Shown piece by piece: positions 38,326 to 43,034 of a DNA stretch of 64,000 nucleotides (positions are counted from its first letter, which is position 1; each line of letters opens with the position of its first letter). The translations under genes were made by a program, and so were the position numbers. This stretch comes from Dyella sp. OK004. GTDB lineage: Bacteria; Pseudomonadota; Gammaproteobacteria; Xanthomonadales; Rhodanobacteraceae. The stretch spans positions 558,001 through 622,000 of the forward strand of contig NZ_FOZI01000002.1 of NCBI RefSeq assembly GCF_900114495.1. The letters run 5' to 3'. The notes under the pieces were generated by a model. That model saw only the letters and a program-made list of their open reading frames with translations. It was not told the DNA's origin and made no database searches.

Positions 38326-38721
38326 TCAGGTACCGCTGCTCGACGCTGCTGCCGGCGCGGCTTTCTTCGAGTGCTTCTTGTTGTGATGACCCTTGGTGTG
38401 TGCGGGCTTGGTGGAGGTATCTGACTTCATCGAGGTATCCGACTTCATGTCGTCGGACTTCATTGAGGTGTCGGATTTCATCGACGTATCCGACTTCATG
38501 CTGTCGGACGACTTCATGCTGTCAGAAGACTTCATGCTGTCAGTGGTCGACTTCATCGCATCTTTGCCAGCGCTCTGCGCGGACTTCATTGCGTCCTTGC
38601 TGGCGTCTTTCGTCGCCTGGGCCGCAGCGGCGCCGGCGTCCTGCGCTATCGCCTGGCTTGCCGCGAAGCCGGTGGCGAGCGCGATAGAGAGGGCGAGTAC
38701 GGCGTAACGTGAAACTTTCAT
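38326..38721 (-). CDS. Exported low-complexity protein with SMKSD repeats and His/Lys tail
   Basis: A 131-residue protein with a Sec signal peptide (MKVSRYAVLALSIALATG..., likely cut after AIA near residue 26). Residues 35-58 are Ala/Lys/Asp-rich, residues 59-103 are a tandem array of five- to six-residue SMKSD(T) units, and the end is HTKGHHNKKHSKKAAP, like the His/Lys clusters of the protein at 8483-8725. The repeat is rich in Met, which could act as an oxidation sink or metal ligand. It lies beside the sigma-NrsF/dipZ-msrB genes. No known family is recognised. Confidence 0.75.
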   Translation of the reverse strand: MKVSRYAVLALSIALATGFAASQAIAQDAGAAAAQATKDASKDAMKSAQSAGKDAMKSTTDSMKSSDSMKSSDSMKSDTSMKSDTSMKSDDMKSDTSMKSDTSTKPAHTKGHHNKKHSKKAAPAAASSSGT

Positions 38722-39152
38722 GGGTACGTTCTCCTTCATCGGTGAGGTGACCGTGCGGCGATAGCCGCACTTCCATGGAGCTGCCGACGCACCCCGTCCC
38801 GGGTTGCCTCAGCGATACCAGTCCCGGCGCAACACCGGTTCCGGTCACGCCACATCAAGCCCCTGCTTGCCCGATGTGCAACGGTTCGTCCCTGGGCCCG
38901 CGAAACCCTTCGGCTATAACGACATAGCCGATAGGTTTTAAGCGTATACCCGTGCTCAAGACAGGCAAGCGGCCTGCGTTGTTATCGTTCAGCATTAATA
39001 TCGTCTCGCGCGCCGTTGCGCGGCACACATGCTGCAATGCCCACAAGACGGAATGAGATTCGGCGGCGCCTCCGCCGCTTCTTTCGTGCCGGATGCTGCG
39101 ACGCGCCATCCGCGCGTCAGCGTGAAGCAAGCGGGAACTTATTTCGCGTTGG
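38722..39152. other. Gene-free stretch between nrsF and the exported-protein gene
   Basis: No convincing coding region is seen in these 431 bp. It holds an inverted repeat CGGCTAT (38911-38917) / ATAGCCG (38924-38930) next to an AT-rich patch that may carry a promoter for the minus-strand exported-protein gene. I found no GTAAC-N16-CGAA motif here, so that gene may not belong to the adjacent sigma regulon. Confidence 0.5.
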
Positions 39153-39806
39153 TCAACGCGGCTGTAGCAATCGGCCACCCATGGCGGCATTTGCGCCGAT
39201 CACCAGAGCCACCGCCAGCACGTGCATCAGCAGATCCGTCACCGCCGCGTCGAAGGCATGGCAGATCTCCAGCAGACTGGCCGAAGCCGCCGCGCTGGCG
39301 AGACCAATCATCACCGCCGTCAACACCGGCCGCAGTGGGAAAGCCCGCCGCAGCAGCCATACCAGGCATGCCGACAACGGGATCGAGAAGCTGACGATGA
39401 ACACCAGGCAGTCGTTGACTTCGTGGATACCCGCCACATGGGTCTCGGAAGGGATCCATGTGCGCAGACAGCCGACACCGCTGGCGCCAATCCATAGCAA
39501 CGCTGGCGGCAGCGGCAGCCAGGCCCAGCGCTCGCTCCGCCCCGGCACGCCAAGGGAAAACGCGGCCCACGCAGCCGCAATCGCGGTCAGCACCGCACCG
39601 ATACCGGCCCAGGCCAGATCCGGTGCGCTGGTCCAGCGTCGGAGCATGCCGGTAATGCCGTAGTGCATCAGCAACCCCGCGGCGATGACCGCCACCACCG
39701 ACAGCCAGCCGAGCGCACGCAGCCACGGCGCAGGCAAACGGCGCACCGGCACCAGCTCGGCGCCGAGCGTGTCGATTAAAGCTTCGTGGCGACGCGGATC
39801 GGACAT
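39153..39806 (-). CDS. nrsF: NrsF-type (DUF1109) membrane anti-sigma factor
   Basis: A 217-residue polytopic protein of the NrsF/DUF1109 family, known in Caulobacter to hold the ECF factor SigF inactive at the inner membrane. It has a soluble N-terminal part (MSDPRRHEALIDTLGAELVPVRRL) and six predicted helices; two cysteines (GVGCLRTWIP, EVNDCLVF) lie at positions where family members have conserved redox-sensitive Cys. It follows the sigma gene by 5 bp. Signals are expected to be oxidants or metals reaching the envelope. Confidence 0.88.
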   Translation of the reverse strand: MSDPRRHEALIDTLGAELVPVRRLPAPWLRALGWLSVVAVIAAGLLMHYGITGMLRRWTSAPDLAWAGIGAVLTAIAAAWAAFSLGVPGRSERWAWLPLPPALLWIGASGVGCLRTWIPSETHVAGIHEVNDCLVFIVSFSIPLSACLVWLLRRAFPLRPVLTAVMIGLASAAASASLLEICHAFDAAVTDLLMHVLAVALVIGANAAMGGRLLQPR

Positions 39807-39811
39807 GGCGC

Positions 39812-40474
39812 CTACGGTTCTCCGTGAATGCGGTTGCGCAGCGCTTTCAGCGCGCGGTGCAGATTGACCTTGAGCGCGCCAGCATTGCGGCCGGTGTGCT
39901 GTGCCGCTTCGGCAAGCGAGCGCTCCTTCAGCGCCAGCTGCTCGACCGCTTCACGCTGTCCCGGTGGCAAGGTGGCAATGGCGTCGCGTAACTGCTGTGC
40001 CGATTGCTCGCGCTCGGTTTCGCGGGTGGCGTCGTCACGATCGGGATGGGTTTCCAACGCGTACTCGTCGTGCAGTTCGCGACGGTCGCGCCGGCCATGA
40101 CTGCGCAGCGCGTCGATGGCGCGGCGCGCAGCAATGGCGGCCAGCCAGGCGTCGTAGGAACGCGAGGGATCGTAGGTATGGCGTACCCGATGCACGGTAA
40201 GCAGGGTCTCCTGCACCACATCGTCCACCGCGTCCGGCGCCACGCCCTGCCGGCGCGCCACCGCGCGGATCAGCCCCACCGAGTCGGCCAGCACGCGCTC
40301 GTAGGCCCGGCGATCGCCCGCCTGGGCAGCCGCCATCAACGCCGCACGGCGCTGATCGGCCTCTTCATTGGCACGAATGGTGGGTTCGGCGGACAAGATG
40401 GCTCGGAGCTGCAGGCCAAGGGAAAGGCCGTCATCTAGAACCATCATGCCGCCCGCGGTCAAGCTCAACGACAT
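39812..40474 (-). CDS. ECF sigma factor, SigF-like (NrsF partner)
   Basis: A 220-residue ECF sigma factor. Region 2 is AQAGDRRAYERVLADSVGLI, VDDVVQETLLTVHRVRHTYD and SYDAWLAAIAARRAIDAL; region 4 is LPPGQREAVEQLALKERSLA and EAAQHTGRNAGALKVNLHRA. A GAGG 5 nt before ATG 40474 supports this start over the ATG pair at 40447/40444. It is paired with a DUF1109/NrsF gene and diverges from dipZ-msrB. Its own promoter matches GTAACC-N16-CGAA, implying autoregulation. Confidence 0.92.
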   Translation of the reverse strand: MSLSLTAGGMMVLDDGLSLGLQLRAILSAEPTIRANEEADQRRAALMAAAQAGDRRAYERVLADSVGLIRAVARRQGVAPDAVDDVVQETLLTVHRVRHTYDPSRSYDAWLAAIAARRAIDALRSHGRRDRRELHDEYALETHPDRDDATRETEREQSAQQLRDAIATLPPGQREAVEQLALKERSLAEAAQHTGRNAGALKVNLHRALKALRNRIHGEP

Positions 40475-40507: not shown

Positions 40508-40533
40508 TTCGCTGGCGGCAGCACCGGGGTTAC
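40508..40533 (-). promoter_or_regulatory. SigF-type promoter of the sigma-nrsF operon
   Basis: On the minus strand GTAACC (40528-40533) and CGAA (40508-40511) are exactly 16 bp apart, fitting the Caulobacter SigF consensus as I recall it. Transcription would start near 40502, about 28 nt ahead of the sigma start codon. Confidence 0.75.
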
Positions 40534-40602
40534 GCCAGTACCTGATAACCGGCCTGGCGCTATCGCGCCGAGTCCGAATTGCGCTGTACTGGTCCCGGGC
40601 AG

Positions 40603-40628
40603 GTAACTCCCGCCGTCGCCACGCCGAA
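40603..40628 (+). promoter_or_regulatory. SigF-type promoter of dipZ-msrB
   Basis: GTAACT (40603-40608) and CGAA (40625-40628), again 16 bp apart, lie 32 bp before dipZ and face it. With the minus-strand promoter this forms a divergent pair separated by about 70 bp between the -35 elements. Confidence 0.72.
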
Positions 40629-40659: not shown

Positions 40660-42381
40660 ATGATCGTGTTGATCCTCGCCTATCTCGGCGGCGTGCTGAC
40701 CATCCTCAGCCCCTGCATCCTGCCGGTGCTGCCGTTTGTGTTCGCCCGCGCCGACCGCCCCTTCATGCGCAATGGCCTGCCGATGCTGCTGGGGATGGCA
40801 CTGACGTTTGCGCTGGTGGCTACGCTGGCGGCGTTAGGTGGCGGCTGGGCGATACGCGCGAATCAGTATGGCCGCCTGATCGCCCTGGCGGTGCTGGCGG
40901 TGCTTGGACTCACGCTGTTGTCCAGCCATGTCGCGGAATGGGTCAGCCGTCCGTTTGTGGCTCTGGGCAATAAGTTGTCGCAGCGCTCGGACGCGGAAGG
41001 CGATTCGGTGTTTTCCGCTGCCGGCCTGGGCATCGCCACGGGTCTGCTATGGGCACCGTGCGCAGGCCCCATCCTAGGCCTGCTGCTCACCGGCGCGGCG
41101 CTCAATGGCGCTAGCGTGCAGACCACGCTGCTGCTGCTCACCTACGCCGCAGGCGCAGCGACTTCGCTGGCGCTGGCGCTGGTGGTCGGCGGCAAGGTCT
41201 TCTCCGTGATGAAGCGCTCGCTGGGCGCAGGCGAATGGGTGCGTCGCGCGCTGGGCGCGCTGGTGCTGTGCGGCGTCGCCGCGATCGCGCTGGGACTGGA
41301 TACCGGCCTGCTCACACGTGTGTCGCTGGCCAGCACCGGTGGTATCGAGCAGCGCCTGATCAACGCGGTGAAGCCCGCTCCCGCACCGCAGCCGATGCTA
41401 AAGCAAGGCGACCCGCTGCCGGTGGAAGGCGAGATGCCTTCGCTCAGCGGCGCCACCGCATGGCTCAACAGCCCGCCGCTGACCGCGATGTCGCTGCGCG
41501 GCAAGGTGGTGCTGGTGGATTTCTGGACGTACTCCTGCATCAACTGCATCCGCGCCCTGCCCTATGTCCGCGCCTGGGCCGACAAGTACAAAGACCACGG
41601 TCTGGTCGTGCTCGGCGTACATGCGCCGGAGTTTGCCTTCGAGAAGGATCTGGGCAACGTGACCAAGGCGGTGAAGGATCTGGGTGTGACCTATCCCGTG
41701 GCACTGGATAACGACTACGCGATCTGGAAGGGCTTCCACAACGAATATTGGCCTGCGCATTACTTCATTGACCCCAAGGGCCAGATTCGCCATCACCACT
41801 TCGGCGAGGGCGAGTACGAGCAAAGCGAAGACGTGATCCGCCAGCTGCTCACGGAAGCCGGTCAGACCAACCTGCCGGGCGGTTACGTGAACCCGAACGC
41901 ACAAGGCGCGGAAGCCGCCGGCTCGGGCGACTACAACCGCTCATCGGAAACCTATGTGGGTTATGCGCGCGCGCAGAATTTCGCCGGCGGCCAGATCGCC
42001 CACGATGACAGTTGGACCTATCGCGCACCATCCACACTGCTTCCCAACCAATGGACGCTGGACGGCCAGTGGAGCGTGCATGACGAAAGTGCACAGCTCG
42101 ACCGCGCGGGCGGCCGCATCATCTACCGCTTCCGTGGCCGCGACCTGCATCTGGTGCTGGGCCCGGGCAGCGATGGCAAACCCGCGCGCTTCCGCGTGCG
42201 CATCGATGGCAAGGCGCCGGGTGCCGATCACGGCATGGACATCGATGCCGGCGGCAATGGCAGCGTGACCTCGCAGCGTTTGTATCAACTGGTACGTCAG
42301 GCCAATGGCTCCGGCGAGCGTCTGTTCGAGATCGAATTCCTCGACCCGGGTGTGCGCGCCTACGCCTTCACCTTTGGCTGA
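40660..42381 (+). CDS. dipZ: DipZ-type thiol-disulfide relay: CcdA-like membrane domain fused to TlpA-like thioredoxin
   Basis: A 573-residue fusion. Residues 1-240 are a CcdA/DsbD-beta-like membrane domain with a Cys in each half (ILSPCILPVLPF; LLWAPCAGPILG). A periplasmic thioredoxin-like domain follows with CINC (Cys293/Cys296 in YSCINCIRALPYVR), and a C-terminal beta domain of about 180 residues ends the protein (DIDAGGNGSVTSQRLYQLV, the DipZ C-terminal family). It should pass electrons from cytoplasmic thioredoxin to periplasmic thiols, here most likely to the MsrB encoded next, 29 bp on. Start at ATG 40660. Confidence 0.88.
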   Translation: MIVLILAYLGGVLTILSPCILPVLPFVFARADRPFMRNGLPMLLGMALTFALVATLAALGGGWAIRANQYGRLIALAVLAVLGLTLLSSHVAEWVSRPFVALGNKLSQRSDAEGDSVFSAAGLGIATGLLWAPCAGPILGLLLTGAALNGASVQTTLLLLTYAAGAATSLALALVVGGKVFSVMKRSLGAGEWVRRALGALVLCGVAAIALGLDTGLLTRVSLASTGGIEQRLINAVKPAPAPQPMLKQGDPLPVEGEMPSLSGATAWLNSPPLTAMSLRGKVVLVDFWTYSCINCIRALPYVRAWADKYKDHGLVVLGVHAPEFAFEKDLGNVTKAVKDLGVTYPVALDNDYAIWKGFHNEYWPAHYFIDPKGQIRHHHFGEGEYEQSEDVIRQLLTEAGQTNLPGGYVNPNAQGAEAAGSGDYNRSSETYVGYARAQNFAGGQIAHDDSWTYRAPSTLLPNQWTLDGQWSVHDESAQLDRAGGRIIYRFRGRDLHLVLGPGSDGKPARFRVRIDGKAPGADHGMDIDAGGNGSVTSQRLYQLVRQANGSGERLFEIEFLDPGVRAYAFTFG

Positions 42382-42410: not shown

Positions 42411-43034
42411 ATGACGACACGATCGATCAAAACCATCCAGAACGCACAACGCCGCGACTTCCTGCGCGTGGCCGCGCTCAGCGGCGCCGCCGTCGCCCTG
42501 GGCGGCCTGCTGTGGCCGCGGCGAGGTCCGGTGATGGCGGCGGTCAGTGCGCCTGCTGCCGCGGCGGCTTCGCGGGATCTGTTGCTCGAATGCTTTGCCG
42601 ATGCGGATGGCCGTCATCTCGGCCCCTGTCATGTGCAGAAGCTGGTGCTCACGGACACCCAGTGGCGCCAGCGCCTCTCCGCGGAAGCGTTCGAAGTGAT
42701 GCGCCGCGAAGGCACCGAGCGCGCTTTCAGCGGCCAGTACGGCAGCCTGCATGCGAAAGGCCTGTTCCGCTGCGTCGGTTGCGACACCGCGCTGTTCGAT
42801 GCATCGACCAAGTTCGAATCCGGCACCGGTTGGCCCAGCTTCTGGCAGCCCATCGCCAAAGCCAACGTGATCGAAACCACCGACCGTAGCTTCGGCATGG
42901 AACGCATCGCCGTGAGTTGCGCAGGCTGCGATAGCCATCTGGGACATGTGTTCGATGACGGCCCGAAGCCGACCGGGCTGCGCTATTGCATGAACTCGGT
43001 GGCGCTGCGCTTTGTGGCGCGCTCGACCACCTGA
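42411..43034 (+). CDS. msrB: Tat-exported methionine (R)-sulfoxide reductase MsrB
   Basis: A 207-residue MsrB with an unusual N-terminal extension: QRRDFLRVAALSGAAVALGG is a twin-arginine signal, so the enzyme should be exported folded. The catalytic domain has the two zinc CxxC pairs (CVGC, CAGC), FESGTGWPSFWQP, HLGHVFDDGP and nucleophile Cys193 in RYCMNSVALRF. It reduces methionine-R-sulfoxide in proteins. It is coupled to dipZ (29-bp gap), which can regenerate it in the periplasm, and the operon has a SigF-type promoter. Confidence 0.93.
   Translation: MTTRSIKTIQNAQRRDFLRVAALSGAAVALGGLLWPRRGPVMAAVSAPAAAAASRDLLLECFADADGRHLGPCHVQKLVLTDTQWRQRLSAEAFEVMRREGTERAFSGQYGSLHAKGLFRCVGCDTALFDASTKFESGTGWPSFWQPIAKANVIETTDRSFGMERIAVSCAGCDSHLGHVFDDGPKPTGLRYCMNSVALRFVARSTT

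Follow-up and report, generated by a model that had tools for sequence, protein, structure and literature searches.

A divergent promoter pair at a sigma-F/NrsF-type locus of Dyella sp. OK004 that very probably serves extracytoplasmic methionine repair

The window analysed here, a 64-kb stretch of the 4.96 Mb genome of Dyella sp. OK004, contains a compact locus in which genes for a sigma factor and its presumed anti-sigma factor lie back to back with a dipZ-msrB gene pair. The relevant features are:

38326-38739, minus strand: gene for a Met-rich repeat protein, 3′ of nrsF (MKSD/MKSS repeats, signal-like N-terminus)
39153-39806, minus strand: gene for an NrsF-type six-helix membrane anti-sigma factor of Cys113/Cys133/His183 type (PF06532, 76.1 bits, cut-off 26.8)
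39812-40474, minus strand: ECF sigma factor gene, sigma-F/ECF16-like (Sigma70_r2 and r4_2)
40533-40508, minus strand: candidate promoter P-sigma, -35 GTAACC (40533-40528), N16, -10 CGAA (40511-40508)
40603-40628, plus strand: candidate promoter P-dipZ, -35 GTAACT (40603-40608), N16, -10 CGAA (40625-40628)
40660-42381, plus strand: dipZ-like gene (Pfam: DsbD_TM, thioredoxin-like (AhpC/TSA), Thioredoxin_10)
42411-43034, plus strand: msrB (SelR and TIGR00357, both above cut-off)

The sigma factor consists of regions 2 and 4 only, its gene is adjoined downstream by that of a six-helix DUF1109/NrsF anti-sigma factor, and (T/C)GTAAC-N17-CGAA precedes it and its candidate targets, three traits that characterise ECF16 or sigma-F-NrsF systems. 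The base 5′ of GTAAC is C in P-sigma and G in P-dipZ, so that only P-sigma has the leading T/C. On the basis of domains and pairwise identity we call the sigma factor sigma-F/ECF16-like. The PF06532 score bears out the assignment of the neighbouring protein to the NrsF family, which had been made by an earlier sequence-only reading of this DNA; in one scan, from which records of the same genome may have been left out, the closest named relative of this NrsF came from Dyella subtropica (82% identity). On the opposite strand, the dipZ-like gene encodes all three of its domains within one protein, a set that we take to define DipZ. MsrB combines its SelR domain with an export signal, a twin-arginine motif (RRDFLR) being readable at its N-terminus, and is predicted to be exported. 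The Met-rich protein contains 8% methionine beyond its first 30 residues.

Scanning both strands of the window for GTAAC-N17-CGAA, the same pattern as GTAACN-N16-CGAA, returned P-sigma and P-dipZ as the sole matches. The sequence-only reading had described GTAACC-N16-CGAA facing sigma and GTAACT-N16-CGAA facing dipZ-msrB, with no further equally spaced copy, and both observations held. The Caulobacter SigF consensus that it gave, GTAACC-N16-CGAA, agrees with that in PMC3511200. Dinucleotide shuffles of the window contained a mean of 0.12 matches. The -10 elements end 33 bp from the sigma ATG (40474) and 31 bp from the dipZ ATG (40660), and 69 bp separate the back-to-back -35 boxes.

A genome-wide scan, which the same reading had proposed, was informative only in part. 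GTAACY-N16-CGAA occurs 9 times in the genome compared with 12 times for the reversed control; the count alone is not enriched, and the significance of the motif comes from placement and conservation. We therefore rejected the pattern count as sole proof. Beyond the window pair, the genome contains seven more copies. One (L108, C2:154717) leads into a membrane-anchored catalase-like gene that is followed by a cytochrome b561 frame. The copies in contigs C1 and C3 and at C7:213047 were not considered further as promoters, since they fall within apparent genes. The copy at C7:405685 (L112) falls in the end of an upstream ORF, ~80-100 bp ahead of dsbD (Pfam), which is unproven as a target. The gene for an AraC-type regulator, in which Pfam identifies a cupin domain (L113), also has the motif, as does such a gene in another genus (L155).

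Of 117 genomes of the Rhodanobacteraceae, 59 have an NrsF match, which in 57, including the genome of the window, is a close orthologue. From the resulting set (the window and 56 relatives) one locus was dropped because a contig end cuts its sigma gene, leaving 56 readable loci; four distant loci (L074-L077) were excluded from the promoter counts. Every one of the readable loci (56/56) has GTAAC-N17-CGAA at most 300 bp from the sigma start, and a divergent target is preceded by the motif in all 56 as well (dipZ in 51, msrB in 5), the relatives being non-independent samples. The motif ahead of dipZ (51/51) has an N17 spacer in 48 loci and N16 in 3, and in the 5 loci where dipZ was not found there, it precedes msrB in every case. 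When spacer lengths from 12 to 23 were scanned, only one match fell outside lengths 16 or 17. The spacers between the boxes are themselves poorly conserved across loci, so the -35 and -10 boxes seem to be kept by selection. Five loci carry 1-2 kb between sigma and dipZ, and each gene has kept its own promoter. In one genus (L048, L059, L060), outer-membrane-protein-like frames occupy the interval between sigma and dipZ, with the promoters still beside their genes. Of 299 genomes of the order, 7 contain an exact divergent pair with a gap of 55-85 bp, in six cases at the sigma-nrsF locus, and the control gave 1 of 299; the low number reflects the narrow gap range. Across the phylum, a relaxed pattern (GTAAC-N15..18-CGA) is present ~610-650 nt 5′ of nrsF, at the sigma start, in 26 of 30 loci with canonical NrsF. 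One of the excluded distant loci (L077:6001-6112) also has a divergent motif pair, with a 36%-identical ECF sigma gene ~750 bp away.

The motif also marks genes unlinked to the locus. In the window's genome, an msrA gene at C6:298888-299595, whose product has a signal-like N-terminus, has the motif 36 bp ahead. Starting from the gene rather than the pattern, we found the exact motif within 300 bp of secreted msrA at 30/30 loci from NrsF-positive genomes (34 genomes including the window's own, 33 matched, 30 loci used) versus 0/29 loci in NrsF-negative genomes (34 genomes, of which 26 matched), a difference with a Fisher p value of 1.7e-17, uncorrected for relatedness. One NrsF-negative genome with a motif-less msrA (G055) comes from a genus that has NrsF-positive members. 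A membrane-anchored catalase-like gene behaves similarly: the motif precedes it in 28 of the 34 NrsF-positive genomes of the test, 7 further matching genomes lying outside this count, and in 0 of 16 NrsF-negative genomes, one of which (G089) has a weak NrsF-like match. The six NrsF-positive genomes lacking the motif at this gene are all from two genera. The msrA and catalase-like motifs occur alongside NrsF and are missing from genomes that lack it, which ties them to the NrsF-linked sigma factor.

Copies of dipZ located elsewhere served as negative controls. Among 17 dipZ-like copies away from sigF (6 full-length paralogues, 3 full-length copies in NrsF-less genomes and 8 partial copies, with 19 weaker off-locus rows left out), none had the motif directly upstream, and the 6 motif-less full-length paralogues are 77-82% identical. 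A motif 2.9 kb ahead of one partial copy (L130) and another inside a paralogue (L115) were not counted as upstream. Together with the conserved promoter pairs and the retention of promoters by their genes in the five split loci, these controls support the prediction, also made in the sequence-only reading, that the sigma factor would switch on itself and dipZ-msrB. The remarks of that reading did not extend to the unlinked msrA and catalase-like targets, to the Met-rich gene 3′ of nrsF or to the unusual NrsF cysteines. The promoter sequences, their conservation, the gene content and the co-occurrence with NrsF are direct observations.

A pattern-first scan of 41 NrsF-positive genomes gives a view of the wider regulon. 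GTAACC-N16-CGAAT matched 128 times versus 24 for the reversed control, with 53 matches at the sigF locus and 75 elsewhere (60 newly read, 3 already in the set and 12 outside the reading). Among the 60, 39 lie ahead of recurring target types: secreted MsrA (21), a small secreted thioredoxin (7), a cytochrome b gene (7; the four read further continue into a YedY-like molybdopterin gene), the catalase-like gene (2), a Met-rich secreted peptide (1) and an AraC-type regulator (1). One MsrA-like case was dropped (L138; the protein lacks a signal, and the motif, 101 bp from the gene, lies within an ORF), reducing 22 MsrA-like cases to 21 secreted ones. The other 21 matches fit no recurring target and look like chance or single cases.

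Met-rich peptides form a variable part of these loci. Downstream of nrsF, 18 of 56 relatives encode a secreted Met-rich peptide whose gene has an exact motif of its own, 2-279 nt after nrsF; many of these peptides contain MKHDAM-like repeats. No exact SigF-type motif lies ahead of the window's Met-rich gene (38326-38739), and we rejected this gene as a SigF target in the window's genome. Genes like it occupy the same place in several relatives, where the exact motif is again absent except perhaps in L071, a similar locus with a motif 170 nt 3′ of nrsF. At a locus of another family (L304:1923-2255), a Met-rich secreted frame lies between a motif (1919) and the sigma gene, perhaps as part of one operon.

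The unusual part of the system is the anti-sigma factor, which, as judged from alignment, lacks the canonical second sensor cysteine and carries an invariant Cys113. In Rhodanobacteraceae NrsF, the first conserved position (Cys129 of OsrA, the Bradyrhizobium japonicum anti-sigma factor) is Cys133 in 57/57 proteins, whereas the second canonical position (OsrA Cys179) is His183 in 57/57, so that the two-cysteine arrangement is not found. Cys113 is invariant (57/57), and Cys182, adjoining His183, is present in only 49 of 57. Conversely, 30 canonical NrsF proteins, taken from loci of the phylum-wide search as best matches to the Pfam model, have cysteine at both aligned positions in 30/30 and Cys113 in 0/30; OsrA and Caulobacter NrsF are outside the alignment, and the cysteine equivalence rests on position in the family. 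The Cys113/Cys133/His183 combination also occurs in eight lower-scoring NrsF proteins of other families (L304-L311), in the second copy of one genome (G105, L074) and in a Rhodospirillales MAG (L303), and four others (L075, L316, L318, L322) have neither Cys113 nor Cys183. Sigma factors encoded beside Cys113-type NrsF are 42-59% identical to the window sigma (no match in L311), compared with 31-42% for those beside canonical two-cysteine NrsF, suggesting that the former tend to be its closer relatives.

A structure model of the window NrsF (pLDDT 81, pTM 0.79) contains six long helices and gave no match at E<=0.001 in a PDB fold search. Helix 99-117 carries Cys113 close to its end and helix 127-152 carries Cys133 close to its start; His183 immediately follows helix 160-182, and the loop that connects Cys113 to Cys133 is weakly predicted. 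Should the N-terminus lie inside, these helix positions would put Cys113, Cys133 and His183 at the outer face. We tentatively propose, with somewhat less than even confidence, that this NrsF represents a separate anti-sigma branch in which the partner cysteine has moved: Cys133 would pair with Cys113, helices 3 and 4 being neighbours whose outer ends carry the two residues, and no longer with the canonical cysteine after helix 5, which is now an invariant histidine. Oxidants might then be sensed by a relocated disulfide (or a Cys-Cys-His site) tuned to methionine-oxidising chemistry. Secondarily, the close back-to-back promoters might be set in helical phase so that two polymerases could interact. 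Short -35 to -35 gaps in relatives are 2, 13-16, 23-26, 28, 35 and 41 bp, and within several genera they differ by ~10-11 bp. For the 17 short gap states to which 48 loci reduce, periodicity had p=0.003 for a period of 10-11 bp and p=0.02 for any period of 7-15 bp, these periods having been chosen after the data were seen; five loci with 1-2 kb inserts, three with N16 dipZ promoters and two second-motif rows were left out. Stepping of the short gaps by about one turn of DNA is thus a post hoc and statistically weak hint.

Taken together, the evidence makes it very probable that this is a regulon of sigma-F/NrsF type serving extracytoplasmic methionine repair. With a probability of about 0.9, we propose that the adjoining ECF sigma factor reads both promoters and is held by NrsF until an oxidant frees it to transcribe its own operon and methionine repair genes. 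Sigma binding, release by oxidation, electron flow and the signal are what we infer. P-sigma and P-dipZ would serve as -35/-10 elements for the adjacently encoded sigma factor, whose activity NrsF would block at the membrane. NrsF would be altered by an oxidising signal from outside the cytoplasm, and the freed sigma would transcribe its own operon, the DipZ-MsrB operon, the unlinked gene for secreted MsrA and, in the majority of the relatives tested, the membrane-anchored catalase-like gene. DipZ would pass electrons from cytoplasmic thioredoxin across the membrane to its periplasmic thioredoxin domain, which would reduce exported MsrB (R-sulfoxide) and probably MsrA (S-sulfoxide). MsrA and MsrB each act on one of the two methionine sulfoxide isomers, and through a shared sigma promoter the two would be co-induced from separate loci. 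Self-activation may be modest, as in Caulobacter, where metal stress elicits only weak autoregulation of sigF (PMC3511200). Sigma-F genes of that organism were not induced by ROS generators in the same study, and its msrA homologues were unchanged; the inducer in Dyella should therefore not be assumed.

Other readings of the same data deserve consideration. It is scarcely credible that the motifs are chance matches, or conserved sequence with another role: the bare pattern is indeed not enriched across the window's genome, yet two matches arose in none of 100 shuffles of the window, both sides of the locus are conserved throughout the readable relatives with fixed spacing, and the msrA motif divides 30/30 against 0/29. 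A more serious possibility, which we still regard as unlikely, is that these are real promoters at which another ECF sigma factor acts too or even predominates, the NrsF-linked sigma merely contributing. Such cross-talk has precedent, since the Caulobacter sigF promoter is still active in a sigF mutant, so that another factor may read it (PMC3511200), and the authors of the Brucella study suggest the same for bcrS (PMC8315932). That the msrA and catalase-like motifs track the presence of NrsF argues for the NrsF-linked sigma instead.

The system could also serve the homeostasis of disulfides or copper instead of the repair of methionine sulfoxide, with DipZ as the main effector and MsrB as a passenger. 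DipZ could act as a general reductant carrier, and in one relative (L072:6634-9198) the motif and a DUF2282-MbnB-like-DUF2063-DoxX operon come after nrsF, an operon like the one that sigma-F controls in Caulobacter. We consider this quite improbable, as the promoter stands ahead of msrB in all five loci without dipZ and the most constant unlinked target is secreted MsrA. Methionine repair under the NrsF-linked sigma factor is the reading that we prefer.

Control of Msr enzymes by an NrsF-linked sigma factor, self-activation and the promoter sequence are already known. In open-licence PubMed Central (titles and abstracts, among the matches listed), we found no NrsF-linked sigma factor with DipZ-MsrB in Rhodanobacteraceae and nothing on Cys113-type NrsF; the version with DipZ-MsrB and secreted MsrA, the strict co-occurrence with NrsF and the relocated cysteine were likewise not found there among the matches listed. 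A promoter pair read by eye has become a regulon that can be tested in Gammaproteobacteria of soil, where genomes with and without it are clearly told apart. The findings suggest that an NrsF-linked sigma factor can drive thioredoxin-fed MsrA/MsrB repair via DipZ, and not quinone-fed MsrPQ, and the cysteine swap lets oxidant sensing by NrsF proteins be probed by single-residue changes in soil bacteria that are harmless.

The closest parallel in function is EcfF-OsrA (ECF16) of Bradyrhizobium japonicum, in which an ECF sigma factor with a six-helix DUF1109 anti-sigma and an autoregulated GTAAC-type promoter controls Msr enzymes together with a DsbD-like membrane protein and a thioredoxin anchored in the membrane, which are proposed to feed the enzymes (PMC3420878). 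The EcfF regulon includes three Msr genes; unlike the divergent dipZ-msrB operon of the window, its targets are described there as separate genes and loci, and its consensus differs, GTAAC(g,a)-N14-15-(c,t)CG(t,a) (PMC3420878). In OsrA, Cys129 is needed for sigma binding and Cys179 for release on H2O2 (PMC3420878), whereas the window NrsF has His183 at the second position and the new Cys113. Caulobacter crescentus SigF-NrsF shares the promoter sequence and an anti-sigma of the same family in one operon with sigF, whereas its targets are DUF2282/DUF692/DUF2063/DoxX operons and YedY (PMC3511200). Caulobacter NrsF has Cys131/Cys181, unlike the window NrsF.

Two further ECF16 pairs place an Msr operon with a Met-rich peptide under similar control: BcrS-AbcS of Brucella melitensis, beside the HOCl-inducible bcrXQP operon with its sacrificial peptide (PMC8315932), and SigF with yedYZ-mrpX in Azospira suillum (as cited in PMC8315932). 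Both use quinone-fed MsrPQ (PMC8315932), in contrast to the DipZ-MsrB and MsrA of Dyella, for which thioredoxin feeding is predicted. Finally, RpoE2-HrsE of Haemophilus influenzae likewise sets an ECF sigma factor, linked to HOCl, over periplasmic MsrAB, with a 67-aa cytoplasmic anti-sigma factor, HrsE, in place of NrsF (PMC7907618).
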